Assembly (NCBI RefSeq): GCF_025148445.1
Contig: NZ_CP102270.1
Coordinates: 868,001-932,000, forward strand
Reading direction: 5' to 3'
DNA: 64,000 nucleotides
Origin: Eshraghiella crossota
Lineage (GTDB): Bacteria > Bacillota > Clostridia > Lachnospirales > Lachnospiraceae
Within the stretch, counting starts at the first letter, position 1; each line of letters opens with the position of its first letter. A program made the translations under genes and the position numbers. This document shows, piece by piece, positions 53,731 to 54,894 of this stretch. The notes beneath the pieces are model-generated. The model worked only from the letters and a program-made list of their open reading frames with translations. It was not told where the DNA came from and ran no database searches.

Positions 53731-53757
53731 TAAAGATAATTGAATATTTGTCGATAT
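53731..53757 (+). promoter_or_regulatory. Sigma-28 (FliA/SigD)-type promoter, first copy
   Basis: TAAA (53731-53734), exactly 15 bases, GTCGATAT (53750-53757). The consensus for motility sigma factors is TAAA-N15-GCCGATAT, so only one base differs. It lies 84 bases before the ATG at 53842. An almost identical block precedes the next gene. Confidence 0.7.
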
Positions 53758-53841
53758 ATTTAATAGCTAAGGATGGCGTCTGTATTCAAGGGATTGAATG
53801 TGAAAATAGACGATGTTTCTGTTTGGATTGGAGGTTATATT

Positions 53842-54801
53842 ATGAGAATACAGGCGGCAAATACATTTTATACAGGTACTTACTCTGTTTTGAATACGAA
53901 GTCATCATTTCCGTATGCTGCGAAAGTAGAAGGTTACGGAAAGACAAGAAACCAAAGGAGTTTATTTCAGTTTGCACATGTGACAATAACGGAACATATG
54001 GTAAATGCAAAATATGGTACAAAGATTACAAATGGTCCGAGAGTACAGATGCAGACAGCAGGTAGTAAGAAAAAAGAAGATTGGACTGAGGTTTCCAAAG
54101 AACAGTTGGCAGAAGTAAAACTACCGGCTTCATTTGAAAAATTGAAAGAACAAAAATCTTATTTCTATCATGGAGAAAACATATCGGATTATGAGCTGGT
54201 GCAAACAGCAGTAGCATTGGGGAAAATGGAATTACCAACAGATGAAAAAAAGTGTATCCCGGACAGAGCTGCAATGGATGCATTTGAAGTGCTTGTCAGA
54301 GATCAGGCGGCTCCAAAAAACTCATGGTCAAATACATTGTATTCGGAAGATGGAAAATATACTTTTACAAAGACTGAAAGCGGTAGATGGCAGATGCATT
54401 TGATTGATGATGCTGCCGTAGGTGCATCTTTGGAAGATATAGCAAATTGGATGATGAGCGGCAAACCTAATAAAAATATTGAGACACGCTACCTAAATTA
54501 TCTTCATACTGTTGATCCGGATTTATATAATGTGGCGATGCGAATAGGTTCTGAGGTTCGTACTTATGGTTTTATGGAGGATTTACATCAGCAGGGAATA
54601 TTAAGTGATAGTCAAAATCAGTATGATATGAGTCTGCTGGGTATGTTATTCGGTAAAGATGCGGATAGTATGCGTATGTTATTGCATGGGTGTAAGGAGT
54701 CTGGAAATTTTTTGGATTTATTGGATTTTTATAGTCCGGATGGAGCAAAATCGTTGGATAAGCTTCGGGAACAGCAATATAAGCACGGTGGAATTGTTTA
54801 A
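53842..54801 (+). CDS. Unrecognised protein, 319 residues, sigma-28-type promoter
   Basis: The start is taken at ATG 53842, which has GGAGGTT at good spacing; an in-frame ATG at 53773 has none. The N-terminus is polar and rich in A, N, T and Y (MRIQAANTFYTGTYSVLNT), with no signal peptide, similar in composition to substrates of the flagellar export apparatus. The rest is soluble and mostly helical, with an acidic C-terminal third. It may belong to one of the Lachnospiraceae-specific DUF families (DUF3879 was considered), but I cannot confirm this. The neighbouring DUF6033 gene shares the promoter type. Confidence 0.7.
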   Translation: MRIQAANTFYTGTYSVLNTKSSFPYAAKVEGYGKTRNQRSLFQFAHVTITEHMVNAKYGTKITNGPRVQMQTAGSKKKEDWTEVSKEQLAEVKLPASFEKLKEQKSYFYHGENISDYELVQTAVALGKMELPTDEKKCIPDRAAMDAFEVLVRDQAAPKNSWSNTLYSEDGKYTFTKTESGRWQMHLIDDAAVGASLEDIANWMMSGKPNKNIETRYLNYLHTVDPDLYNVAMRIGSEVRTYGFMEDLHQQGILSDSQNQYDMSLLGMLFGKDADSMRMLLHGCKESGNFLDLLDFYSPDGAKSLDKLREQQYKHGGIV

Positions 54802-54817
54802 TATAGCGAGTTGTATG

Positions 54818-54867
54818 ACAGGATATGGCTAATGCTGTATCCTGTTACATTTTTTTTTTTTTTTTTA
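54818..54867 (+). terminator. Terminator with an 18-base T run
   Basis: ACAGGATA-N12-TATCCTGT is a perfect 8-bp stem followed within five bases by a run of 18 T. The last T is also the first base of the next gene's TAAA -35 element. Confidence 0.85.
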
Positions 54868-54894
54868 AACTTTTTTGAATATTTTGTCGATATA
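54867..54894 (+). promoter_or_regulatory. Sigma-28 (FliA/SigD)-type promoter, second copy
   Basis: TAAA (54867-54870), 16 bases, GTCGATAT (54887-54894). The spacer end and -10, TTGAATATTTTGTCGATATA, repeat the first copy almost exactly (one extra T). It lies 58 bases before the ATG of the DUF6033 gene. Confidence 0.7.

Follow-up and report, generated by a model that had tools for sequence, protein, structure and literature searches.

Two adjacent genes in the 64-kb stretch of DNA analysed here (the window) are each preceded by a sigma-28-type promoter and, judging from sequence comparison, are very likely under sigma-28 (FliA) control, i.e., switched on together with the flagellum. The first (gene 1) encodes a protein of unknown family and the second a DUF6033 protein with a FliK-type C-terminal tail. 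The reading that we favour, and hold to be reasonably probable, is that both are accessory members of the class-3 (sigma-28/FliA) regulon of a motile gut bacterium of the Lachnospiraceae and that DUF6033, less certainly the gene 1 product, would act at or be exported through the flagellar type III gate.

Two promoters in one window

The initial annotation had described TAAA-N15/16-GTCGATAT 5' of both genes, and we located both sites as it had described them. The features of the gene pair are as follows.

53731..53757, + strand: sigma-28-type promoter of gene 1 (TAAA 53731-53734, 15-base spacer, GTCGATAT 53750-53757; whole site TAAAGATAATTGAATATTTGTCGATAT)
53830..53834, + strand: ribosome-binding site GGAGG of gene 1 (read directly; good)
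53842..54801, + strand: gene 1, 319 aa, unknown family (ATG 53842)
54816..54847, + strand: terminator-like hairpin 3' of gene 1 (14 pairs, then a T run)
54866..54893, + strand: sigma-28-type promoter of the DUF6033 gene (TAAA 54866-54869, 16-base spacer, GTCGATAT 54886-54893; whole site TAAACTTTTTTGAATATTTTGTCGATAT)
54940..54945, + strand: ribosome-binding site AGGAGG of the DUF6033 gene (read directly; good)
54953..55690, + strand: DUF6033 gene, 245 aa (ATG 54953; PF19498, E 1.8e-79)
55673..55687, + strand: codons of the FliK-type tail I-D-F-K-G at the DUF6033 C-terminus

With the hairpin at 54816-54847 between them, gene 1 and the DUF6033 gene apparently form two independent units, with one promoter for each. 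The nearly identical spacer end of the two sites (TTGAATATTT), to which the annotation had also drawn attention, recurs in locus L143 and is absent from the remaining homologues listed; it thus looks like a lineage feature.

Two matches to TAAA-N14-17-GYCGATAT occur in the window against 0.08 expected, a count reached in none of 100 shuffles, and no sigma-70-like site was found overlapping either promoter. Across the whole genome (2.52 Mb, one contig), the strict string was not enriched, with 11 matches versus 10 for the reversed control; a looser string gave 33 versus 28, with 30 of the 33 matches inspected. A string match alone therefore defines no regulon, and a comparative test was needed.

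For the comparison, a weight matrix was trained on 24 flagellin sites (seed match) out of 41 flagellin-type upstream regions of relatives, with neither window site among the training sites. The flagellin genes of these relatives have TWAA-N15-NCCGATATAT in common, mostly with GTA after TWAA. A report on Lachnospiraceae flagellins gives the same sigma-28 promoter type, with TAAA / MCGATAa of Butyrivibrio fibrisolvens as reference (PMC3720852). The gene 1 site scored 20.5, the top of the window, ahead of a second score of 15.4; the reversed window reached 12.3 at most. The DUF6033 site scored 10.2, which is marginal alone and within reach of the reversed-window best. It is weak, but near the weak site of one of the genome's own flagellin genes (L039, 11.0, outside the training set); two other flagellin genes of this genome scored 25.3 and 23.4, both belonging to the training set. 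The second-best site of the window (15.4) lies on the minus strand at 9622-9652.

Conservation of the promoter upstream of homologues

We collected DUF6033 loci from public records and kept the best 80 out of 267 relatives, among them the cultured carrier Butyrivibrio hungatei DSM 14810 (L185). The promoter that the annotation expected 5' of DUF6033 homologues proved to be common among them: 64 of these best 80 carry a site of at least 8 within about 350 bases upstream, versus 54 of 1065 other ORFs. In that comparison the stretch searched may have been a little longer for DUF6033 than for the controls, and equal stretches gave 64/80 again. As a stricter control we took 430 ORFs that were each preceded by 100 or more bases of free DNA, and searched both sets over windows of the same size. 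It yielded 64/80 versus 34/430 (p 8e-41) and, at a score of at least 12, 44/80 versus 24/430, again for the best 80 of 267; as the 80 loci are related and not independent, the p-values overstate the difference. An earlier set had sites of at least 10 in 14 of 31 DUF6033 genes versus 12 of 248 other ORFs, a set that left out three DUF6033 matches lacking a called ORF and locus L013, which was absent from the ORF set.

Sixteen of the best 80 homologues have no site of at least 8. Some of the high-scoring control genes directly precede DUF6033 (L168, L177, L148, L149), so some siteless homologues may be read from the head of an operon. Other high-scoring controls include flgM (PF04316) and, as we read their sequences, presumably a flagellin, an flgL-like gene, and mreB/mbl.

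Gene 1 has few homologues with which its promoter can be compared. In L143, where DUF6033 is 95% identical to the window copy, the gene 1 site is TAAA-N15-GCCGATAT with a score of 24.5, and a DUF4885 gene farther upstream has a site of 18.1. Sites of 13.8 each precede the homologues in L148 and L149, and none of at least 15 was found close by in G032. Relative to the window copy, gene 1 of L143 (1738-2625) is missing approximately 30-50 residues in frame at its N-terminus; the promoter is kept and is closer to GCCGATAT.

Co-occurrence with the flagellum

The genome that holds the window encodes a FliA/WhiG sigma factor (TIGR02479, 267.6 bits; curated cut-off 189.6), FlhA 47 kb beyond the window, and four Flagellin_N matches, its flagellin genes having the same promoter type. 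Flagellar genes, whose absence would have refuted the annotation's reading, are thus present in it. A PF19498 profile search found DUF6033 in 26 of 98 genomes, this one included, and FlhA is present in 68 of the 98. All 26 DUF6033 genomes have FlhA, versus 42 of the 72 without DUF6033 (Fisher 1e-5). Within the family, taking one genome per genus, the association stands at 20/20 versus 12/36 (p 4e-7). Taken together, the flagellin-trained matrix, the 64 of the best 80 homologues, the presence of FliA, and the co-occurrence with FlhA strongly support the sigma-28-type promoter reading.

The same profile search gave a below-cut-off match in Thermotoga maritima. DUF6033 also occurs in metagenome-assembled records labelled Bacteroides (L186) and Alistipes (L198). 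These genera are not known to have flagella, and the two records are likely mis-binned.

The two proteins and their neighbours

The window DUF6033 protein matches PF19498 with 266.8 bits, over a cut-off of 25. It is laid out as a T/N/A-rich start, a small alpha/beta core (residues ~36-153), a K/E-rich segment, and the C-terminal tail. The structure model has a mean pLDDT of 59, with 69-83 for residues 41-120 and low confidence at the N-terminus; compared with the PDB, its best match had an E of 0.24. Searches of the protein found no Flg_hook (PF02120) match, profile comparison with FliK gave a probability of 12%, and neither DUF6033 nor gene 1 matched PF14282 (FlxA).

The gene 1 protein matched no Pfam or NCBIfam family (best Pfam E 0.12), and its model, built from four sequences, reached a pLDDT of 48. 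Homologues occur in 3 of the 98 genomes including the one under study (49% identity in G032, partial in G064), and lie beside DUF6033 in L143, L148, and L149, where they form cluster c23. Its C-terminus reads ...KHGGIV, with no FliK-type tail. Both proteins have the T-, N-, and A-rich beginning that the annotation had described: their opening 40 residues are 40% and 38% T, N, A, and S, versus 25% and 27% overall. Hydropathy, the one measure used here, gave no strongly hydrophobic stretch in either N-terminus.

The DUF6033 window protein has no cysteine at all. Cysteine is absent from 84 of 111 DUF6033 proteins versus 38 of the 728 remaining ORFs with lengths of 150-400 aa, and among the 37 clusters with at least five members in DUF6033 loci the four cysteine-poorest are c6, DUF6033, c9, and c4, with the gene 1 family tenth. 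Exported flagellar proteins are generally cysteine-poor, so this depletion may point outside the cell; it fits lysine-rich coiled-coil proteins in general as well.

Some neighbours recur in DUF6033 loci. The c4 cluster consists of small proteins (n=15), eight of them encoded on the same strand within 600 bases of DUF6033, and both of the two members scanned match FliD_C (PF07195). Clusters c6, c9, and c13 are recurrent unnamed families. Two neighbours occur once each: an FlxA-like protein beside DUF6033 in G002 (PF14282, E 3.5e-16) and, in locus L145, a DUF3879 protein.

We also considered DUF6033 as a phage gene and found little sign of it, the search turning up one viral contig (L304). That contig carries a FliD-like gene together with DUF6033, near a gene that we take, from our own reading, to be recombinase-like. 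A single-protein scan of viral contigs with gene 1 found no relative.

Upstream of the gene pair, the window holds a Phd-like/Fic pair (51869-52494, the Phd-like match being weak and below cut-off) and, on the opposite strand, an ORF that we take to be IS30-like (51241-51717). A 234-aa ORF (52964-53668), placed after the Fic pair and before gene 1, has no significant family match and could be a fragment. The two congeners readable at this place (G001 and G002) have different genes upstream of what we presume to be a spoIIGA-like gene: in G001 presumably a tpiA-like gene, and in G002 a 302-aa ORF after a presumed tpiA-like gene. In G003 and G004 the stretch covered is too short to tell. This context suggests that the pair sits in an accessory island, and the mobile segment proposed in the annotation is plausible.

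Two further places in the same genome have a similar look. A second accessory cluster (C1:458431-466448, L329) has sigma-28-type sites of 14.3 and 16.0; it contains an FlxA-like gene whose product ends IDIRL, another protein ending NFDMKA, and a small protein ending KIDKEV that is c4-like by eye and had no Pfam match. At L298:856-1449 (C1 near 1651000), a 198-aa protein with a T/S-rich start and no tail is preceded by a sigma-28-type site of 19.5.

A FliK-type C-terminal tail

DUF6033 proteins end in a hydrophobic residue, D, F/Y (and others), any residue, and G/V/I/A (and others), the window copy reading IDFKG. We wrote this as one regular expression (hydrophobic-D-hydrophobic-x-hydrophobic-COOH), which was defined after the proteins had been viewed and was counted over the 111 of 113 DUF6033 proteins of at least 200 aa. 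By this measure the exact C-terminal tail is present in 91 of 111 DUF6033 proteins, 9 of 11 in c6, 10 of 10 in c9, 7 of 8 in c13, and 5 of 15 in c4, as well as in 23 of 30 FliK proteins and 19 of 20 copies of a second Flg_hook protein. No tail was found at offsets of 1-4 residues from the C-terminus in any of these sets. As background, the remaining ORFs of the loci match in 23 of 1383 cases and internal pentamers in 1.0%; a stricter form of the pattern occurs in 15 of the 1383, several of which lie beside DUF6033 or are FliK-like.

FliK of the relatives ends V(D/N/E)(Y/F)xA or similar (a broader pattern fits 27 of 30), and E. coli FliK ends GVDIFA. In Salmonella, export switching is reported to require the five C-terminal residues of FliK, whose proposed target is the cleaved domain of FlhB (PMC10965912, PMC13344023). 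By analogy, the DUF6033 tail might dock on FlhB.

The second Flg_hook (FliK-like) protein occurs in this genome and 19 relatives (L254-L273) with a tail close to FDVRA, and 9 of the 20 genes have a sigma-28-like site of at least 10. Elsewhere, a 95-aa protein ending GFDIRI is encoded by the second gene after fliA in a flagellar/chemotaxis operon (L106:11253-11540).

Shared homology of the tail-bearing families was considered as the source of the tail and rejected, as profile comparison, with or without the tail, gave nothing convincing apart from FliK and the second Flg_hook protein, which matched at 97%. The next best pair, DUF6033 and c6, reached 31% over 14 columns (26% with the tails removed). 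Nor does the tail mark every flagellum-linked accessory protein. It is missing from gene 1, from the DUF4885 protein that L143 encodes, and from the products of L284 and L298, as well as from the E. coli FliA targets YnjH, YjdA, and YjcZ, so the tail marks a subset. Only 6 of the 27 tail-bearing proteins of c4, c6, c9, and c13 have their own sigma-28-type site of at least 8 directly upstream; the other 21 genes would thus need an operon or neighbour promoter.

A tentative reading of this distribution, which we think less likely than not, is that the FliK-type tail might be a general, transplantable docking signal for the export gate, by which unrelated proteins would reach FlhB after hook completion. 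On that same tentative footing, the users of the tail may comprise DUF6033, FlxA, some FliD_C-like mini-proteins, the DUF3879 protein, and several unnamed families.

Possible roles of the two genes

FlgM leaves once the hook is finished, and FliA becomes free. In the reading that we favour, FliA would transcribe gene 1 and DUF6033, each from its own promoter, after completion of the hook-basal body. DUF6033 would then reach the export gate, its presumably disordered N-terminus serving as the export signal and its FliK-type tail as the contact with FlhB, and at the gate would either be exported or tune the switch. Export of DUF6033 through the flagellum is what its cysteine depletion, its FliD_C-like and FlxA-like neighbours, and its tail would suggest. 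For gene 1, which has a promoter of the same type but no tail, an export role is less certain.

An alternative that we think rather unlikely, though it deserves weight, holds that the proteins are sigma-28-controlled cytoplasmic helpers (export chaperones, gate regulators, or motor modulators) whose tail would touch FlhB or another part of the gate only to regulate switching. The promoter evidence would be identical, the K/E-rich segment of DUF6033 would suit a docking protein, and the FliK tail is described, in PMC10965912 and PMC13344023, as a switch element and not as an export signal. Exported flagellar proteins are, however, the better fit for the cysteine depletion and for the low-confidence, T/N-rich N-termini, and the FliD C-terminal domain of some neighbours also speaks against purely cytoplasmic helpers.

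It is improbable that DUF6033 and the FliD_C-like proteins are instead exported decorations, i.e., minor structural or surface parts of the filament or hook, with the tail as an assembly contact. The FliD_C matches of c4 and the closeness of this cluster to DUF6033 (8 of 15 within 600 bases) would agree with such a role, as would the cysteine depletion. Yet FliK, which bears the tail, is no part of the filament, and the three of this genome's own flagellins that we read end ...LLQ instead. DUF6033 is moreover absent from 42 of the 68 FlhA-bearing genomes, so flagella in general do not depend on it.

That the promoters are chance matches in AT-rich DNA or belong to an overlapping sigma-A promoter can draw on the unenriched strict pattern and the weak matrix score of the DUF6033 site, but we reject it as very improbable given the conservation among the best 80 of 267 homologues (64/80 versus 34/430 control ORFs) and the lack of a sigma-70-like site overlapping either place.

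If the tail is a gate-docking signal, FliK, the hook ruler, would not be alone in making such a contact with FlhB, and the flagella of commensals could be recognised as systems that secrete a cargo of their own. On the tentative reading of the tail as a general signal, there would be a cargo class of flagella-exported accessory proteins extending from gut Lachnospiraceae to E. coli. DUF6033 and several nameless families of motile gut bacteria would gain a first role and a testable handle, and E. coli FlxA, the product of a FliA-dependent gene, a possible function.

Comparison with known systems

Sigma-28-dependent accessory genes are a known kind, exemplified by FlxA and by the Campylobacter Feds. 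In the literature searched, outside which most subscription journals lie, we found no mention of DUF6033, DUF4885, DUF3879, or 'FlxA-like' proteins, and no precedent for DUF6033 as a sigma-28 accessory member or for a FliK-type tail common to unrelated proteins.

E. coli FlxA offers a close parallel in several respects. According to PMC4183435, flxA is bound by FliA, and its expression is 280 in motile MG1655 versus 2 in a fliA mutant. Akin to DUF6033, the FliA-dependent FlxA has a T/N/S-rich start, no cysteine, and a tail (TIDIYV, within the end AGTIDIYV). The gene lies in prophage Qin beside the toxin-antitoxin pair relBE, and the window genes lie beside the Phd-like/Fic pair. The two differ in that DUF6033 and gene 1 are without PF14282. 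Among the 98 genomes, 7 of the 11 FlxA-like proteins above cut-off have the tail and 4 do not; one of the seven is the G002 protein beside DUF6033, and two (from this genome and G012) are near-identical at the end. A further difference is that none of the clade's 11 FlxA-like genes has its own sigma-28 site of at least 8 upstream (the best being 5.7), and this argues against each of them being directly controlled by FliA.

FliK (T3S4, Flg_hook) shares with DUF6033 the type of its last five residues, and DUF6033 differs in lacking both Flg_hook and profile similarity. The Feds (flagellar coexpressed determinants) of Campylobacter are sigma-28-coexpressed and non-structural, and some are exported; the window genes resemble them, and further non-flagellar proteins that leave through the flagellum, in concept. 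With the flagellin genes of Lachnospiraceae, finally, the window genes share the sigma-28 promoter type itself. The spacer preference differs: 16 bases are favoured at DUF6033 sites (41 of 55) and 15 at flagellin sites (21 of 30; p 4e-6, 16 versus 15), while two of this genome's own flagellins have the 16-base spacer.
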